DNA of 27,488 nt from a virus, in the IMG/VR virus record IMGVR_UViG_3300044613_000825, positions 1-27,488 of that record. One strand, given 5' to 3'. The position numbers and the translations under genes were made by a program. Positions within the stretch are counted from its first letter, which is position 1. The number at the start of each line of letters is the position of its first letter. A model generated the notes under the pieces. It was given only the letters and a program-made list of their open reading frames with translations. It searched no databases and was not told the DNA's origin. Shown piece after piece: positions 1-15,309 of the stretch.

Positions 1-131
1 TTGAAACGCAAAGCTCCCAGGCCCCGTGGGATATAAGAACGGGCACGCGCGCCTAGTCGAGAACGGGGTGCAATGCAAGTCACAACCGCGTGATGACCGT
101 TAGGGTTGCACGTCCTGGGAATAGCTATGTA

Positions 132-150
132 ATACAATGGCTGATTGTAT
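132..150. repeat. 7-bp inverted repeat, operator-like
   Basis: ATACAAT and ATTGTAT flank the 5-base spacer GGCTG, a perfect 7-bp dyad of the size bound by small dimeric regulators. Each arm contains a TACAAT hexamer, one per strand, but neither has a -35 box at a usable distance. Its function is unknown. Confidence 0.45.
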
Positions 151-202
151 CATGTGGTGTTGCTTAGGGTGACACACTAACAACCCCTCCCATTACTTGA
201 CG

Positions 203-224
203 CATCATCTGTCCATCATCTGTC
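203..224. repeat. Two tandem copies of an 11-base unit
   Basis: CATCATCTGTC occurs twice back to back (203-213 and 214-224), followed by one further C. No further copies were noticed in the window. It could be a binding site or replication slippage. Confidence 0.6.
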
Positions 225-521
225 CCTCAACAGTATTCATCGCCCTCTATACTCAATGCCCCGACCTGGAACCTTGCGTGACCCTCGCCAGGTCTTGGGT
301 GTTACTTGGAAGGGGTACCCCGGGGGCTGGGGGTGGCCTTATTCTTGCATACGACACTCTCACATTTTCCCAGAGAAATTCCCATCCGACTGGGACCCCA
401 TACCATATCTCGGGATGTAAGACATGATATGTTCCATCTGATGTCCCCTAGGCTCTAGGTTGTCTTCCAAGGTGACTCATCGGGGGATACCATCGCTTAT
501 ACTGTCTCGATATGGAGATTA

Positions 522-541
522 GGTAATTATTTGTCATTACC
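522..541. repeat. Inverted repeat just upstream of the first promoter
   Basis: GGTAAT (522-527) and ATTACC (536-541) form a 6-bp dyad with an 8-base spacer. It ends four bases before the -35 box at 546, a position suited to an activator or repressor site. Confidence 0.45.
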
Positions 542-545
542 CCCA

Positions 546-574
546 TTGACTTTGTATTTAAAATATGCTATAAT
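546..574 (+). promoter_or_regulatory. Sigma70-like extended -10 promoter (P1)
   Basis: A -35 box TTGACT (546-551) is followed by a 17-base spacer and a perfect TATAAT (569-574), with TG one base upstream of the -10 box (extended -10). The predicted transcript starts near 581 and leads into the spike gene at 784 and the packaging genes. It closely matches the promoter at 7714-7742, including the spacer block AAATATG. A host-sigma70 promoter fits the absence of a phage RNA polymerase in the window. Confidence 0.8.
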
Positions 575-697
575 AAGAGCATAGCGCAAGAGAGCTCATG
601 TAGATGTCACCCACAGGGTAACAGAGATTCTTGTTTATCTAATCTTTAATCTTTGTCATCTCTTCTACTTTATAACTTCTTGCCACCAACATCGCTC

Positions 698-735: not shown

Positions 736-783
736 GTCCTCTTCCGTCCAAATTGGGCGTCGACCCTACAAAGGATTAAGACC

Positions 784-3420
784 ATCGCCAAACTTACCGT
801 AAACCCGTTGCAGTCCGGCTACCGTTCATCGAACGCCCTGAATGCCAATTTGGATGCTATTGAGGCCGCACTCGAGAATACCCTGAGCCGCGACGGAACC
901 TCGCCCAACCAAATGTCCGCCCCGCTGGACATGAACAGTAACCGCATTACAAACCTGGCCGCGCCTGTGAGCGGTTCCGATGCTGCACGCCTTACCGATG
1001 TGCTGACCGTGGCTCCTGGCACGAATGTCGGGACTTTCCTCGCGACGCCTACCAGTGCCAATTTGGCTGCCGCCCTGACGGATGAGACGGGTACCGGGCT
1101 CGCAGTATTTAATAATTCGCCGACCCTCGTGACCCCGGTTATCACGGGCGGGTCGGTCACCGGTATTACCGATCTGGCGGTGGCTGACGGCGGCACGGGC
1201 GCATCGGACGCATCAACCGCTCGCACAAACCTTGGCCTTGCAATCGGCACGAACGTCCAAGCCTATGACGCGGACCTTCAGGCTATCGCAGCACTGACTT
1301 CCGCTGCCGACAAGCTGCCCTACGCCACCGGAGCGCAAGCGTGGGCGATGACGGACCTGACGGCAACTGGTCGCTCTTTGACCGGAGCCGCTACCCCCGC
1401 CGCAGCTAAAGACAACATTTACCTTGAGCGCACCCCGTTTGATTTTGGTGTGGTCGGAGACACCACGGACGGGACGAACGGCACCGATGACACCGCCGCG
1501 TGGCAGGCATATTTTGACTATTGCTTCACGAACAACCGCGTTCCGACAGCTAACCGCTACATCAAATCGCGCATCACCGGAGCGCTAACAATCCTTGCAA
1601 AGCGCGTTCCCGTGAGCGTGGGCGGAAACGTGGCGGTAGCCTTCGACCTCGGCAACGTAACGTTCATGTATAACGGCACCCGGAATCGCGTTGTTTTGGA
1701 CATCGGTTCTGCGCCAAACGGGACTGCGGGGGCAAACGCCTACATCGAAAGCAAGATGGTCTTGCCAGATGTGATCGCGGTGGGTGGTTCCGTAACTTGG
1801 CCTGTGACCTCGCTGTCCGGGGCGGACACTGCCATTCGCATCCGTCGAGCGTTCCGCTGCGACATCCGGTATGGTTACGTTGTCGGTTTCTCCAAGGGCG
1901 TCGAACTGATTGGCGTGGCGTATTGCCAGCATCATCTCCAGCACATTGTTGACAACAAGTTCGGCCTGATCCTGACGACTGAAGGCACGGACATTGACGA
2001 TAGTTTCACCAACGAAAACAACTTTTTTGGCGGCAGGATCGGCCACACTTCTAACTCAAACGGGTTAGGTGCCGCTGCGGGCGTCGTGTTCACCTGGGAC
2101 AAGTCGGCCTCATATCGGGGCCAGAACTGCAATCGCTTCCACGGGCCGTGCTTTGAAAGCGGCGGCGCGGGTTCTGGCGCTGACCGCATCCCGATCTGGT
2201 TTGATGGCGCGGGTAGCCACAACGTCTTCCGAGACATCCGCAACGAAGGAAACTTCGGCGTGATGGCGGTTTGCGATGGGGCGGGGGCATCATCCCGGGC
2301 GGCGGGCAATGAGTTTAATATGCTCTATGGCGAGAGCATTGGGCTTCAACTGGCCATTCAGCAAGTCGGAGGCGCGAGCGGAAACATTGTCACAGGCCCG
2401 CGTTCTCACCAGTCGCACTGGCACAGCAGCGACATGGGCAAGCTAATCTATACTAACGGTGACACTAAGGCGGCGCTACGCGGGAAAGAGTTCTTCTTCG
2501 GGGTCGCAGGCACGTTTATTGCCAGCACCCCTAGCAGGGTTGATCCTGTCGGCGGCGGCGCAAGCATTATGACGCACCGGACAGCCGTCATGCTGGACGC
2601 GGGAGGTTACGCTCGCATCGGCGTTGCAATAGATACCTCAGTTCTAAAGGATTTTTTGTGCTGTTATTCTACAGTCACAGGGACTTCGGGACGCCCATAT
2701 TTTGTTGCGCTTGACGCAAACGGCGCAATACTGGCTGGAACAGCTACCGAAACTGCGACAAACCCCATAACTGGCGCAACTTTTAGTAACGAAAGCTATG
2801 TAAAAGCTGTAGCGCCAACAACTGCGGCAACCAAACTAGTAACAAGCGGAAACGGGTTCAGTACGTCTGCCGATGTTGCCTCGACGCGCGCATTGTTTGT
2901 TACCGTGCGGCCCGAAGTAAAAACTTTGTTGTTTATGGTAATGGGTGGTTCGGCCAAAGTCGGCGTCCATTCCATGAGTGTTACCAGTTTTGGTTTTAGC
3001 GATCTGGTTGGCTCTGCATACCCGACGCTGGACGGCCTTTCCGCTTTGCGCGTCTTCAACCCGCTCGATGACGGGTATGACGATATGCGGGCTATCGCGA
3101 ACCCGGCTACGACTGGCATCCACGGTTATTACCGCTTGGGTGATATTGTTCGGAACGCCGTTGTGGTTGCGGGTCAACCAACTGGATGGCAATGCACGAC
3201 AACGGGGTTCCTCGCCCCGGCGTGGGCTATCAGCACGGCATACGATCCTGTTGGCCGGTTGGTGACGAATGACGGCGGCAAGATTTACGAGCTTGTGACG
3301 GCAGGCACGTCAGCGGGCGCAACCGGCCCGACCGGCACGGGATCGGCCATCGCGGACGGCACCTGCGTTTGGAATTACATCGGCGTGAAGGCGACCTTTG
3401 CTGCGCTGGCGAACCTGTGA
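784..3420 (+). CDS. Tailspike/tail fibre with beta-helix domain, probable ATC start
   Basis: Host-receptor binding virion protein of about 878 residues. Residues 1-75 form an anchor domain containing ENTLSRDG and PLDMNSNR, nearly the same as the fibre at 10470-11402 and typical of N-terminal virion-binding regions of podovirus fibres. A linker of short fibre-like repeats follows, including NLGLAIGTN. From about residue 219 the motif FDFGVVGD with nearby TDDTAAWQA marks a pectate-lyase-like parallel beta-helix, the usual tailspike fold. The last 100 residues contain a YELVTAGTSAGATGPTGTG module seen at adhesin ends. The first ATG/GTG/TTG in frame is TTG 808, but the protein similarity to the second fibre begins 8 codons earlier, at ATC 784 (I-A-K-L, where the other has M-A-K-L). 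AAAGGA at 770-775 is well spaced for ATC 784. Codon use is richer in GCG and CGC than in the head genes, suggesting transfer. Any enzymatic activity on host polysaccharide is unproven. Confidence 0.85.
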   Translation: MAKLTVNPLQSGYRSSNALNANLDAIEAALENTLSRDGTSPNQMSAPLDMNSNRITNLAAPVSGSDAARLTDVLTVAPGTNVGTFLATPTSANLAAALTDETGTGLAVFNNSPTLVTPVITGGSVTGITDLAVADGGTGASDASTARTNLGLAIGTNVQAYDADLQAIAALTSAADKLPYATGAQAWAMTDLTATGRSLTGAATPAAAKDNIYLERTPFDFGVVGDTTDGTNGTDDTAAWQAYFDYCFTNNRVPTANRYIKSRITGALTILAKRVPVSVGGNVAVAFDLGNVTFMYNGTRNRVVLDIGSAPNGTAGANAYIESKMVLPDVIAVGGSVTWPVTSLSGADTAIRIRRAFRCDIRYGYVVGFSKGVELIGVAYCQHHLQHIVDNKFGLILTTEGTDIDDSFTNENNFFGGRIGHTSNSNGLGAAAGVVFTWDKSASYRGQNCNRFHGPCFESGGAGSGADRIPIWFDGAGSHNVFRDIRNEGNFGVMAVCDGAGASSRAAGNEFNMLYGESIGLQLAIQQVGGASGNIVTGPRSHQSHWHSSDMGKLIYTNGDTKAALRGKEFFFGVAGTFIASTPSRVDPVGGGASIMTHRTAVMLDAGGYARIGVAIDTSVLKDFLCCYSTVTGTSGRPYFVALDANGAILAGTATETATNPITGATFSNESYVKAVAPTTAATKLVTSGNGFSTSADVASTRALFVTVRPEVKTLLFMVMGGSAKVGVHSMSVTSFGFSDLVGSAYPTLDGLSALRVFNPLDDGYDDMRAIANPATTGIHGYYRLGDIVRNAVVVAGQPTGWQCTTTGFLAPAWAISTAYDPVGRLVTNDGGKIYELVTAGTSAGATGPTGTGSAIADGTCVWNYIGVKATFAALANL

Positions 3421-4079
3421 TGATCCTCGAACCTGGCCACCTCATTACCAATATAGCGCCTGCCACCGCTGCCAACCCGCCGAAAGCCAACCGCATGACA
3501 AACGCAGACGATCTCAAAAACCCTGTTCCCGAATCAATTATCATAAAAAAACTCACAAAACCTCCATATAAAGGTGAGTCGGGCGTCTGGCTCACCGAGG
3601 CTCTCTTCTACCAAAAGACCGTTGACCGACCTAAGAACCGGCTTATCTGCGAACCCGTCTTTGACCTCTACGATACACGACCCGGTCTAATCAATTGCCG
3701 GACCACCTTTGTCAACCTCAAAGACCCAACGGGTCGCAAGTGGGCAATGACGTATCTTGGCGACTGGAACCACTGGCTACGTCTCATGCGATGTGCCTGG
3801 TTCCGGGAAGCCTTCGAGGTCTGGATATCAGAACTTAATCTCCAATTGAAATCAGAGGCCATCGCCAAGGCCCTCGAGATCATGAACGGTGAGAATGGTG
3901 CTCAAGCTCTTGCTGCTGCTAAGTTCATTGCGACTGCAGAATACGACAAGAGCGTCCGAGGTCGACCGTCTAAACAAGAGCTCGAAGGCCAACTTAAAAA
4001 GGCAGCTGAGGCGCTTACCGTGGAAGATGAGGACCTAGCCCGCATTGGATTGAAAGTAATTGCAGGAGGTAAAGCCTGA
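3420..4079 (+). CDS. Probable terminase small subunit / DNA maturase A-like protein
   Basis: A 219-residue protein placed two genes before the large terminase, where podoviruses usually encode the DNA-recognition subunit of the packaging motor. It has a central Trp/Arg-rich region (WAMTYLGDWNHWLRLMR), then a predicted helical stretch, and ends with RGRPSKQELEGQLKKAAEAL, a basic-to-acidic tail that I associate with phage small terminases; this is recall, not a search. The ATG at 3420 shares a base with the spike stop codon (TGATG), which suggests coupled translation. An alternative ATG lies at 3495 (MTNADDL), which would remove 25 residues. Neither has a clear ribosome binding site. The assignment rests mainly on position, so moderate certainty. 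Confidence 0.6.
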   Translation: MILEPGHLITNIAPATAANPPKANRMTNADDLKNPVPESIIIKKLTKPPYKGESGVWLTEALFYQKTVDRPKNRLICEPVFDLYDTRPGLINCRTTFVNLKDPTGRKWAMTYLGDWNHWLRLMRCAWFREAFEVWISELNLQLKSEAIAKALEIMNGENGAQALAAAKFIATAEYDKSVRGRPSKQELEGQLKKAAEALTVEDEDLARIGLKVIAGGKA

Positions 4080-10227: not shown

Positions 10228-10482
10228 ATGGAAATTGCACAGGAAATCACCCACTACGAGACCAACCCTGCGATTATGTACAAATTAGGGCATATCGAGG
10301 CACAGCTCGCCGCAATTAACGCTAAACTCGATGTGAAGGAGGCTGCACAAGACGCAGAAATTGCCGCACTTCGTAAAGACGTTTCCCAGCTTAAAGATTG
10401 GCGTATGCTCCAACTCGGTGCCGCAGGGGCCATCTCTTTTATCATTGGCATCCTAACTAAGGTGGTCACATGGCCAAGCTAG
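10228..10482 (+). CDS. Small coiled-coil and transmembrane protein, possible holin-like
   Basis: An 84-residue protein from ATG 10228 (MEIAQEITHYE). Residues about 25-60 form a coiled coil (HIEAQLAAINAKLDVKEAAQDAEIAALRKDV), and a single hydrophobic segment lies near the C-terminus (LQLGAAGAISFIIGILTKVV). This layout resembles XhlA-type membrane proteins and some small phage lysis accessory proteins. A GTG at 10204 would add 8 residues but lies inside the terminator stem, so the ATG is preferred. No good ribosome binding site is visible. A dedicated 3-TM holin is encoded at 24018-24482, so lysis is only one option; a membrane contact for the virion or injection is another. Confidence 0.65.
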   Translation: MEIAQEITHYETNPAIMYKLGHIEAQLAAINAKLDVKEAAQDAEIAALRKDVSQLKDWRMLQLGAAGAISFIIGILTKVVTWPS

Positions 10483-11402
10483 TCCTAACCGATATTGCCA
10501 GTCTTCAGGCCGAAAGCACTGCGATCCAATCGATGAACGCGAACTCGGCGGCCATTGAAACGGCCTTCGAAAATACGCTGAGTCGGGACGGCACGACCCC
10601 CAATACCATGTCCGTTCCGTTGGACATGAACAGTAACCGCGTAATTAATCTCGCCGCACCTGTAAGCGGCTCCGATGCCGCACGTCTCACTGATGTTGCG
10701 GATGCTCTGTCTGTTGATGCGACGTTGGTTCCTTCGATGACTGGCAACTCCGGTAAGATCATGTCGAATGACGGCTCGATCTTGAACTGGAAGACGCCTG
10801 CTCAAATCTCCGGTCTCGGCGATCTTCTGTCTACCAATAACCTTTCTGACCTAGCTTCCGCCGCAACGGCCCGGACGAACCTCGGCTTGGGCACTGCCGC
10901 TGTTGTCGCTACAGGTACCTCCGGAGCCACTCTTGGTCTCCTGAATGGTAACCTGACGTTCTCGGGCACCGTAGCGAATACAGGTCTTGTTTCCATGTCG
11001 GCCGGTGCCACCCTTAGCGGTACCGTGGACTACCGTCTAACGGCTACACCCACAACCCTCAACTCAGACAGTATTGGTTATCGAGGAGCCCCCCTCAACA
11101 CCAAGGATGTGGATTACACCCTAGTCCTTTCAGACTCCGGCAAAACGGTCCTACACACCTCAGCCTCTGCTCACGTCTGGACCATCCCGCCGAACTCGTC
11201 GGTGGCCTACCCCACTGGAACTGTAATCGTCGTTGCTAATATCGGTTCTGGTCCCGTTGCCATTAACCGTGGCTCGGGCGTAGCTCTTCGCCAGGGTGGT
11301 AGCGCAACCGATGGTAACGTAGCCTTGGCCCAGCACGGCATCGCTTCTCTGTTGAAGCTCGACACTAACAGCTGGTACATTTCTGGAACCGGTGTGTCCT
11401 AA
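10470..11402 (+). CDS. Second tail fibre, sharing its anchor domain with the 784 spike
   Basis: A 310-residue fibre-like virion protein. Its first 75 residues (MAKLVLTD, FENTLSRDG, PLDMNSNR, NLAAPVSGSDAARLTDV) closely match the spike at 784-3420, so both probably attach to the same kind of virion site. A middle region has fibre repeats (TARTNLGLGTAAVVATGTSG), and the last 100 residues (DYTLVLSDSGKTVLHTS... through WYISGTG) resemble the compact C-terminal domain of other phage fibres. No beta-helix is evident, in contrast to the first spike. It starts 12 bases inside the previous gene with AAGGTGG upstream, and its stop shares a base with the next ATG (TAATG). Confidence 0.8.
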   Translation: MAKLVLTDIASLQAESTAIQSMNANSAAIETAFENTLSRDGTTPNTMSVPLDMNSNRVINLAAPVSGSDAARLTDVADALSVDATLVPSMTGNSGKIMSNDGSILNWKTPAQISGLGDLLSTNNLSDLASAATARTNLGLGTAAVVATGTSGATLGLLNGNLTFSGTVANTGLVSMSAGATLSGTVDYRLTATPTTLNSDSIGYRGAPLNTKDVDYTLVLSDSGKTVLHTSASAHVWTIPPNSSVAYPTGTVIVVANIGSGPVAINRGSGVALRQGGSATDGNVALAQHGIASLLKLDTNSWYISGTGVS

Positions 11403-12459: not shown

Positions 12460-12730
12460 TTTACTTAGAGCCGGAGTTCACCCAAAAGCTCTCCGCTGCA
12501 TTTCGGAACACGCAGTATACGTTTCAAGTGGTCGACAAGAGTACCGGATACTTCAATCTGGTCCGACCTTCTCAATCAAACGATGGCCAAGGGGACCTCT
12601 TCCCCGAAACCTTAACGGCTCCTTCACCTCTTTCCGAATGTGTGAGGACCGTCTCGTCAATTTCCTAAAATCTAAGGACAAGTGGGGCAAAGCCATCTAC
12701 CCCGGCAAGGAGTCTCATGGCAAGAGCTAA
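12443..12730 (+). CDS. Small basic hypothetical protein between the tail tube genes
   Basis: A 95-residue basic protein from ATG 12443 (MGVRDDLLRAGVHPKALR). The text has balanced, protein-like content (EYRILQSGPTFSIKRWPRGP, SFRMCEDRLVNFLKSKDKWG) and ends YPGKESHGKS. It overlaps the tail tube A end by 17 bases and the tail tube B start by 14 bases, as is usual in this block. A second open frame (12456-12668) runs in the same place; this one is preferred because it reaches the next gene and its second half reads better. A TTG start at 12425 is less likely. I do not recognise a known family; a small tail-completion role is possible from position only. Confidence 0.6.
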   Translation: MGVRDDLLRAGVHPKALRCISEHAVYVSSGRQEYRILQSGPTFSIKRWPRGPLPRNLNGSFTSFRMCEDRLVNFLKSKDKWGKAIYPGKESHGKS

Positions 12731-14903
12731 AGTCAATCGCCTATACAGGACGTTCGTTAAGGGCCTAATCACTGAGGCCAGCCCTTTGACGTATCCTGCT
12801 GATGCCTCCATCGACGAGGACAACTGCGAGATTTTCCGAAAGGGTAATCGTAGTCGTCGTCTAGGTATGGATTTTGAAGACTCCTATGCGCTGAGCGTAT
12901 ATGCTTCATCTGGAACCGATAGCACCCGCACCTATCGCTGGGAGTCGGTTAATAACGATAGCGCGGTAAACTTTCTCGTGCATCGAATCGGGACGTCGAT
13001 CTACTTCTACGACCTGAGCCTCAGCCCGCTTTCCAGTGGGCTAAAGTCGTTTTCAATCGACCTTAATCTTTTTGCGGCTCCGAACCAGACCGATTTGAAT
13101 GTCGGTGAGGTTTCTATGTCGGGCGGTAAGGGCTATCTATTTGTCGTCGGCGAGAAGCTTGAACCCTTCCTGGTCGAATATGACCCGGGTACCGACACCA
13201 TCACCACGCAGCGTATTTACGTTCAGATGCGTGACTTCCAAGGTGTCAACGACGGGCTGGCCAACGACGAAGAACCCTCGACGCTAACAGACCTGCACAA
13301 ATACAACCTTATGAACCAGGGCTGGCTTGACCCTCGTAATGCTGGTAGCGGCGGTACTGTAAACTATTTCGACCAGTTTGGCGGTATTGAAACCTATGCT
13401 GGCCCCACCACTGGCGTCATCACTGCGTATCACACGGAGTGGGGTAAATATCCACCAAACAATAAACAATGGTGGGTTGCTAAGGATGCCACTACTGGCG
13501 CTTTTACGCCTGACATTTTGGGTACGTTTTTCAACGGGACAACGCGGGCTCCTCGTGGTCACTTTATTCTAGATGCTTTCTACAAAGACCGCACTGCAGC
13601 CTCCGGTGTCCCCGACATTCCTGTTGAAGCTGTTGCCGATCGACCTCCGACAGTAGCCTTTGCTGCGGGCCGCGTTTGGTACGCCTGTAACTCGACCGTC
13701 TACTTCAGCCAGGTTCTGGATAACAAGGCCAAAGCCGGGTTCTGTTATCAAGAGGCTGACCCTACTTCAGAGGACATCAGTGACCTGATCGACTCTGATG
13801 GCGGTGTCATTCCGATCCCTGAGATGGCCAAAGCTGTCAAGATTCTACCTTTCAGCTCCGGCCTTGTTGTCTTTGGGACCAACGGTATCTGGTACATCGG
13901 CGGTACCCAAGCGGGCCTGACGGCTACGGATATATCTGTCTCCAAGGTCAACCCTATTGGCACCGACAGCCCGGATAGCATCGTGGAAGCCGAGGGTCAA
14001 ATCTTCTGGTGGTCCCGCGTGGGCATCATGGGTATGTCCCAGAAGTCTGGCCAGTTCGGGCCCGTTGAAGGCGTCTTTGATCGCACGAACACCACCGAGC
14101 AAACCATCCAATCCTTCTATGTCCACGACATCCCTGAGGCCTCTAAGCCATATGCCAAGGGCGTCTATGACCCGGCAACCAACAGGGTCCAGTGGATATT
14201 TAAGTCCGGCACGACCCCCAGCCCGTACATGTATGATCGGGTCCTTAATCTTGACCTGTCTCTCGGGGCCTTCTTCCCGTGGACCGTTGAAACTGCTGGG
14301 CCTTATATCAGCGATATCTTTATTACTGCCAGCCTTAATACTTTGACCGACCAAGAGAACATTCGTAGTTCGTTCATCAAGTATCTCTGTGCCGTACCCA
14401 TCGGCGGTAGTATGTACAAATATACCTTCGGGTACTTCAAGAGTTCCGAGTTCGCCGACTGGTATACCTACGACGGTGTTGGCACAGCTTACATGAGCTT
14501 TGTCGAAACCGGCTACGAGTTGCTGGAAGACGCCATGCGTAAGAAGCAGACACCCTATGTCTTCTGCTACTTCCGGCGCACCGAAGAGAACTACGTTGAC
14601 AATGGTGATGATTATACTGTTGACAAGCCCTCCTCTTGCTACTTCCAGGTTAAGTGGGATTGGGCCAGCTCTTCTAACTCTAATAAATGGTCCAGCAAGA
14701 TTCAGGTCTACCGGCATCGTCGGACGCCTCAATTCTCTGAGGATGACCTAACCTTTGATACCGGCTTCCCTATTGTCATCTCCAAGAACAAGGTGCGTGG
14801 CAATGGTAGGGCGATTCAATTCAGATTTGAAAGTGATGAAATTGGACACGACTTTGATCTTCTCGGATGGGCAGTCCCCGTCGAAGGCAACACTGAATCC
14901 TAG
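12717..14903 (+). CDS. Tail tubular protein B (nozzle)
   Basis: The 728-residue large tail tube component that extends the connector and carries the fibres (T7 gp12-like; T7 gp12 is 794 residues). The start MARAKVNRLYRTFVKGLITEASPLTYP matches the family hallmark of a conserved F-x-G-x3-E-x-S-P near the N-terminus. Later text includes LVVFGTNGIWYIGGTQ, GQIFWWSRVGIMG and PWTVETAGPYISDIF, features of nozzle beta-propeller repeats. GGCAAGGAGTCTC before the ATG gives a good binding site. Confidence 0.9.
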   Translation: MARAKVNRLYRTFVKGLITEASPLTYPADASIDEDNCEIFRKGNRSRRLGMDFEDSYALSVYASSGTDSTRTYRWESVNNDSAVNFLVHRIGTSIYFYDLSLSPLSSGLKSFSIDLNLFAAPNQTDLNVGEVSMSGGKGYLFVVGEKLEPFLVEYDPGTDTITTQRIYVQMRDFQGVNDGLANDEEPSTLTDLHKYNLMNQGWLDPRNAGSGGTVNYFDQFGGIETYAGPTTGVITAYHTEWGKYPPNNKQWWVAKDATTGAFTPDILGTFFNGTTRAPRGHFILDAFYKDRTAASGVPDIPVEAVADRPPTVAFAAGRVWYACNSTVYFSQVLDNKAKAGFCYQEADPTSEDISDLIDSDGGVIPIPEMAKAVKILPFSSGLVVFGTNGIWYIGGTQAGLTATDISVSKVNPIGTDSPDSIVEAEGQIFWWSRVGIMGMSQKSGQFGPVEGVFDRTNTTEQTIQSFYVHDIPEASKPYAKGVYDPATNRVQWIFKSGTTPSPYMYDRVLNLDLSLGAFFPWTVETAGPYISDIFITASLNTLTDQENIRSSFIKYLCAVPIGGSMYKYTFGYFKSSEFADWYTYDGVGTAYMSFVETGYELLEDAMRKKQTPYVFCYFRRTEENYVDNGDDYTVDKPSSCYFQVKWDWASSSNSNKWSSKIQVYRHRRTPQFSEDDLTFDTGFPIVISKNKVRGNGRAIQFRFESDEIGHDFDLLGWAVPVEGNTES

Positions 14904-15309
14904 GCAAGCGGTTCTCGCAGACCTTGAAACTGTCGTTGCCCTGTGCCGAGAGTTCCATTCAATCTCACTTTGGTCTTCCATCCCCTTCGACGAGGATCAC
15001 GTCACCAAGCTGGCAGCCAATACGATTGCTACCGGGGGCGTCTTCCTTGTCGACGGAGGTCTTATAGCTGGTCTCGTTACCGGCACTGTTTTCGCCCCTG
15101 ATGTCTTGATGGCCGCTGAGATAATTTGGTATGCACCAAATGGTGGCGGGCAAGAACTTCGGACTGCTTTTGAAGCCTGGGCCGTCTCTCAAGGGGCTAC
15201 GGTTTCCCAATTGACGCATCCGGTGAACGAGAACCTTAAGGACTTTACGGCTCGAATGGTCGACCGTTCTTACCACCCCTTTGAACTTTCTTTTGTAAAG
15301 GCCATCTAA
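14836..15309 (+). CDS. GNAT-like N-acetyltransferase
   Basis: A 157-residue protein from ATG 14836. The core reads QAVLADLETVVALCREFHSISLWSSIPFDEDHV, then GGVFLVDGGLIAGLVTGTVFAPDVLMAAEIIWYAPNGGGQELRTAFEAWAVSQGA, matching the GNAT fold: beta strands, then the acetyl-CoA pyrophosphate loop (NGGGQEL) and helix. Similar genes lie between tail and ejection proteins in other T7-like phages. The substrate is unknown. The start is uncertain: ATG 14836 overlaps tail tube B by 68 bases and adds 19 residues before the conserved text, while CTG 14893 has GAAGG 5 bases upstream and would start right where the family normally begins. It ends one base before the next ATG. Confidence 0.75.
   Translation: MKLDTTLIFSDGQSPSKATLNPRQAVLADLETVVALCREFHSISLWSSIPFDEDHVTKLAANTIATGGVFLVDGGLIAGLVTGTVFAPDVLMAAEIIWYAPNGGGQELRTAFEAWAVSQGATVSQLTHPVNENLKDFTARMVDRSYHPFELSFVKAI

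Follow-up and report, generated by a model that had tools for sequence, protein, structure and literature searches.

A conserved AUC/AUU codon as the probable start of a tail spike gene in Zobellviridae-like phages

Introduction

Where does translation of a phage tail gene begin when the conserved N-terminus of its protein is preceded by no standard start codon? This question is raised by a tail spike gene for which an initial annotation had proposed a start at ATC. The initiator tRNA can read AUC and AUU with a mismatch at the third position, and IF3 discriminates against such starts. The gene of IF3 itself, infC, begins with ATT in E. coli and with ATC in Streptomyces, and the GTC start of Streptomyces sigR is repressed by IF3, as mutation and Western blot demonstrated; the starts of both genes had been misannotated in like manner (passages of PMC5472188). 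In vitro, weak third-base pairs are poorly accepted, the more so at higher IF3 (excerpt of PMC10158994). Why a rare start codon is used has also been asked for the tail spike of Enterobacter phage EspM4VN. This phage differs from ours in belonging to another family, the Ackermannviridae, and the available extract of the article names only Val or Leu starts of the GTG/TTG class (PMC7283392).

We analysed the complete sequence of IMG/VR record IMGVR_UViG_3300044613_000825 (positions 1–27,488, one strand, 5’ to 3’), referred to below as the window.

Results

Source and phage affiliation

The window is probably a fragment of a podovirus genome. In protein comparisons its terminase, portal, capsid and tail proteins were Zobellviridae-like (SIO1, ICBM, CRP-4, ICP2), and large terminase (TerL), portal and tail proteins were closest to those of phages SIO1, ICBM and ICP2, as is expected for Zobellviridae. 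Identity of TerL to Cobavirinae phages was 62–66%, whereas the tail protein encoded at 12717–14903 reached only 29–36%. For window bases 1–25000 no phage record close at the DNA level was found, and the window contained neither tRNA genes nor Rfam families at the gathering threshold. A TTG-initiated frame of 184 aa at 14755–15309 overlaps the end of the 12717–14903 gene and is conserved at about 45–49% in three related loci (L174, L175, L179).

The list of open reading frames showed no evident long gene in the first 780 or so bases. Positions 1–540 are part of a gene-poor stretch that is seen more completely in the relative L005, where about 1.4 kb without a clear gene (L005:612–2030) separate a leftward gene (3–611, minus strand) from the rightward spike promoter.

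The spike gene and its probable start site

The spike gene occupies 784–3420 on the plus strand and, counted from ATC, encodes 878 residues, namely an N-terminal anchor of about 75 residues followed by an exchangeable distal part. Parts of the product matched tail fibre proteins in PHROGs, and no solved structure matched it by sequence. We call it a spike because of the PHROG hits and the exchangeable distal part. Among close relatives the distal part is swapped; residues 1–172 of window and L003 are 91% identical, with no significant alignment thereafter. The anchor (N-terminal 75 residues) is common to the spike, to many phage fibres and to a second fibre of the same phage, whose gene (10470–11402, plus strand) has a normal ATG start. 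Counterparts of the second fibre in L006, L008, L009, L010 and L091 (position 13170) also start with ATG.

Protein alignment bore out that the similarity between the spike (I-A-K-L-T-V) and the second fibre (M-A-K-L-V-L, ATG 10470) begins at the ATC codon at 784–786, and most anchor-bearing phage fibres begin with Met where the window has codon 784. The first in-frame stop upstream is TAA 673. Between this stop and ATC 784 the frame contains no ATG, GTG, TTG or CTG; its only near-cognate codons are ATC 691 and ATT 775. The next standard codon after ATC 784 is TTG at 808–810, eight codons downstream. When the open frames of the window were compared by eye with 13 related loci, unassigned overlapping frames being set aside, the spike was the sole gene in which distant homology was seen to reach, for no other evident reason, beyond the first standard start (homology from residue 37 of the frame, first standard start at 45). 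The TerL frame also showed similarity 5’ of its ATG in this comparison, at a place where the previous gene overlaps.

The motif AAAGGA lies at 770–775, 8 bases ahead of ATC, as had been described, and resembles a Shine-Dalgarno site. For each of the six genes with an AT(C/T) codon (window, L003, L004, L005, L091 and L097), pairing with the 16S tail came to between -5.0 and -5.3 kcal/mol at that codon and to 0 at the standard start that follows. Taken alone the AAAGGA site is weak evidence, because about 12% of random window positions reach a pairing of -5; the weight of the Shine-Dalgarno argument is carried by the conservation of the site. ATT 775 was rejected as a start codon: it abuts the Shine-Dalgarno site and is absent in L005 and L097. 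Where it does occur (window, L003, L004, L091 and L020) it is part of the element AAAGGATT.

Conservation among close relatives

The initial annotation had suggested aligning related phages at codon 784. This alignment returned ATC or ATT and in no case ATG. Besides the window, the clade comprises the contigs L003, L004 and L005, whose anchors are 84–97% identical to that of the window, and L091, a contig of 49.6 kb from another sample whose TerL is 95% identical. The first codon is ATC in the window, L003 and L004 and ATT in L005 and L091, and the arrangement of (A/T)AAGGA, 8 bases and ATC/ATT is kept in 5/5 members. The first standard codon is found at residue 9 in L003 and L004, at residue 19 in L005 and at residue 6 in L091.

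We then considered at which point the frame begins to behave like protein-coding sequence. Over codons 2–74, comparison of the window with L005 or L091 showed saturation at synonymous sites and dN values of 0.12 and 0.22, respectively. Within codons 2–8, K, L and T were retained despite third-base changes (AAA/AAG, CTT/CTA, ACC/ACT). The anchor is under strong purifying selection. On the 5’ side of the site, three indels (2, 1 and 1 bases) set L005 apart from the window, and L003 carries an insert of 30 bases. Since the indels differ among relatives the leader is not coding, and an upstream frame as entry into the spike was rejected for the same reason; no upstream open frame common to the relatives was seen. 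Constraint on codons 2–74 and indels upstream together place the beginning of protein-like behaviour of the frame at 784.

A second lineage with a probable ATC start

A further ATC was found in L097, whose TerL is 70% identical to that of the window. Here a strong promoter is followed by AAAGGA, 9 bases and ATC-AAA-CTT, with TAA upstream and no standard codon in between. The non-canonical codon is thus kept in 5/5 clade members and, independently, in L097. In the TerL tree L097 is sister to L103 (support 100/100), which has TTG at the position aligned with the ATC, and the window clade is sister to L095 (97/97), which also starts with TTG. TTG is likewise found at the same place in L020, behind AAAGGATT, and the spike of L094 starts at TTG 503. 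Because each of the two lineages has a TTG-starting sister, AT(C/T) starts would have arisen at least twice, provided that the few sampled relatives are representative.

Promoter and leader

A sigma-70-type promoter (TTGACT-17-TATAAT, 11 of 12 matches, TG before the -10 hexamer) is located at 546–574 on the plus strand, about 200 bases from AAAGGA. It is kept in all five clade members, and comparable promoters occur in the more distant L020, L095, L097, L103, L121, L143 and L170.

The leader itself showed several features on the plus strand. An AUG directly before UAG (598–603) lies inside the conserved element GCTCATGTAG, which is common to both AT(C/T) lineages (window 594–603; L097:227–236) and located 21–35 bases 3’ of the -10 box. 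The leaders of VP41s3 and ICP2 carry a similar TTCATGTA. The element GCTCATGTAG is possibly a start-stop mini-ORF or an RNA element. A fold of four sequences predicts pairing within 586–683 (arms 586–592/676–683, inner stem 600–604/664–668). Two pairs of the inner stem show compensatory changes on both sides in L091. The single-sequence fold was no better than shuffles (z 0.17), so evidence for the predicted fold is weak. A terminator-like hairpin at 698–735 (AAGGGG and CCCCTT, 698–703/723–728, followed by TCTTTTT) was recognised from sequence and folding, its loop being too long for a simple terminator scan; transcripts would be expected to terminate here. The equivalents of 580–735 in L004, L005 and L091, with their long predicted helix, terminator-like hairpin and U run, are strongly conserved. 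The leader may serve as an attenuator or as an antitermination site of a late promoter. We do not claim a leader like that of lambda pR’-tR’; by eye, L097 and L103 have no comparable hairpin.

Census of anchor starts

We collected anchors with an HMM, which yielded 220 distinct anchors from the assembled loci, 219 of them with an upstream stop in view. In seven of the 219, namely the window, L003, L004, L005, L091, L097 and L033, no standard start was present as far as codon +4. L033 proved to be a misplacement by the HMM (match from model position 14) and was dropped, as was L203 at a contig edge, leaving 218 anchors. A promoter was counted as strong if it showed 11 of 12 matches with a spacer of 16–18 within 450 bases, a rule set after the leader had been seen. 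L093, with only 225 bases upstream, was counted as having no promoter.

Behind a strong promoter (n = 18) we found 6 AT(C/T), 10 TTG and 2 ATG starts, 16/18 being non-ATG. The other anchors (n = 200) had 0 AT(C/T), 18 TTG, 3 GTG and 179 ATG starts (21/200 non-ATG). Fisher’s test of non-ATG starts against the promoter gave 2e-12, a figure that is only descriptive because rows are related, loci were chosen for resembling the window and its relatives and the promoter rule is post hoc. All AT(C/T) starts of the census come from two lineages only. With an earlier, looser cut-off, whose pattern missed several anchors and let in two weaker ones, 14 strong-promoter anchors comprised 6 without a standard start, 4 with TTG and 4 with ATG.

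L294 and L371 have ATG despite a strong promoter, and the spikes or fibres of the cultured phages ICP2 and VP41s3 start with ATG behind long leaders; a weak start is therefore not required. In other clades, TerS genes close to a promoter of this kind mostly begin with ATG, so that the weak start tracks the spike and not position alone. Within the window, the TerS-like gene (phrog_8035; start region 3495–3543) has ATG 3495 upstream of ATA 3543 and without a good ribosome site, and the ATG of relatives appears aligned with ATA 3543. The TerS-like genes at L097:4300 and L103:6209 begin with TTG behind AAAGGATT, the same box as ahead of the spikes.

We also scanned viral contigs for the promoter pattern; among the matches listed (at least 120 loci) none carried the anchor. 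Genome contigs contained 7 relatives of the anchor; the start regions read (4/7) all had standard codons (3 ATG, 1 TTG). The tail fibres of the Zobellviridae phages SIO1, ICBM2, CRP-4, ICP2 and VP41s3 share a homologous N-terminal anchor with the window, and their large terminases are homologous as well. Unlike the spike, all of these fibres are read as ATG starts, and no promoter of the scanned kind matched upstream of them.

Alternative explanations

The window is a single-contig metagenome sequence, and a misread ATG had been named as the main alternative to an ATC start. Since relatives carry ATC (L003, L004) or ATT (L005, L091) at the same codon, base 786 is not an error; with a further ATC in L097, a sequencing or assembly mistake is in practice ruled out. 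Initiation at TTG 808, with eight preceding residues that merely look coding, would have the advantage of a standard codon that is common for the spike gene in relatives. The codon at this position is CTG in L005 and CTT in L091, though, and Shine-Dalgarno pairing is lacking at 808 and likewise, in each of the six AT(C/T) genes, at the standard start that follows, in agreement with the description of TTG 808 as a first standard codon without a good site. Such a start would also remove K-L-T, which is kept through synonymous changes and occurs in homologues whose ATG, GTG or TTG start lies at the earlier position. We judge TTG 808 to be internal, and initiation there to be very improbable. Ribosomes might instead enter from elsewhere, by an upstream start in another frame plus a frameshift, or the spike might be a silent cassette that is not translated in place. 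The AUG-UAG of the leader and the wholesale, cassette-like exchange of the distal spike part among close relatives would suit these ideas. Against them stand the differing leader indels with no shared upstream open frame seen, the conservation of promoter, ribosome site and frame, and the strong purifying selection on the anchor; their chance is slender. The proposal that the spike starts at ATC 784 is thus supported by an ATC/ATT codon kept behind a conserved site, and the gene very probably initiates at AUC 784 (AUU in two relatives). The ATC to ATT change itself would be equally expected of an internal isoleucine codon.

An AUC start may also be without any regulatory role, if abundant mRNA from a strong promoter relaxes selection for ATG and near-cognate codons drift in. 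Related spikes that follow such promoters do commonly have TTG, and AT(C/T) could have drifted from it through ATG. Yet ATG occurs in none of the five clade members despite synonymous saturation, and drift alone would not lead one to expect that 16/18 strong-promoter anchors avoid ATG. We consider this explanation unlikely, though deserving of some weight. Overall, we favour as the probable explanation an AUC/AUU start that is read with fMet, is inefficient and limits the amount of spike made from a strong promoter. Comparative evidence settles the position of the start far better than its purpose.

Discussion

One of the closest parallels to the spike is infC, which has a start codon of the same AUU/AUC class (PMC5472188, in excerpt). 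The spike shows features expected of a gene of this class: a frame that holds no standard start from the preceding stop as far as the conserved N-terminus, a conserved ribosome-binding site at working distance, and a non-canonical codon kept across relatives. Unlike the spike, which does not regulate IF3, infC is a cellular, autoregulated factor gene. For sigR the same excerpt describes a non-canonical start that keeps the protein low relative to its partner and, as with the spike, is missed by annotation; its codon is GTC and was established by mutation and Western blot, whereas the ATC/ATT of the spike was identified by comparison alone. AUU and AUC starts as such are already known. Searches of the open-licence full-text literature found no report of a phage virion gene that uses, and conserves, a start of this kind.

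How might such a start work? The AAAGGA site would place the ribosome, and the initiator tRNA would read AUC or AUU as formyl-methionine. Because its third pair with the CAU anticodon is imperfect, such a codon would be rejected by IF3; initiation would then be slow and little spike would be made from an abundant mRNA, even though the gene is the first cistron behind a strong promoter of host type. A low output would suit a virion that needs few copies, and it could balance the spike against the second fibre, an ATG-started protein that carries the anchor too and might compete with it. Both the limitation of spike amount and its control by IF3 are what we infer from this scheme. The census, in which weak starts go with strong promoters, is consistent with a weak codon that would keep the spike low; whether low output is what selection keeps we judge to be evenly balanced.

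Gene callers usually take ATG, GTG and TTG only and would shorten the spike anchor by at least eight residues. A misplaced start would leave the host-recognition protein of this group mis-modelled at the very end by which it attaches to the virion. With a conserved AUC/AUU start on a virion gene, nature would provide a test of the extent to which near-cognate initiation is used, and also of whether start-codon strength sets the ratios of tail proteins. More tentatively, in this Zobellviridae-like group the AUC, AUU and UUG codons of a gene that comes first after a strong promoter could form a conserved throttle on translation of the receptor-binding spike, one that host IF3 may read and that sets the ratio of two anchor-sharing tail proteins. 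If this is true, the throttle would be a control of virion stoichiometry by the start codon, the AUC/AUU form of which was reached at least twice.
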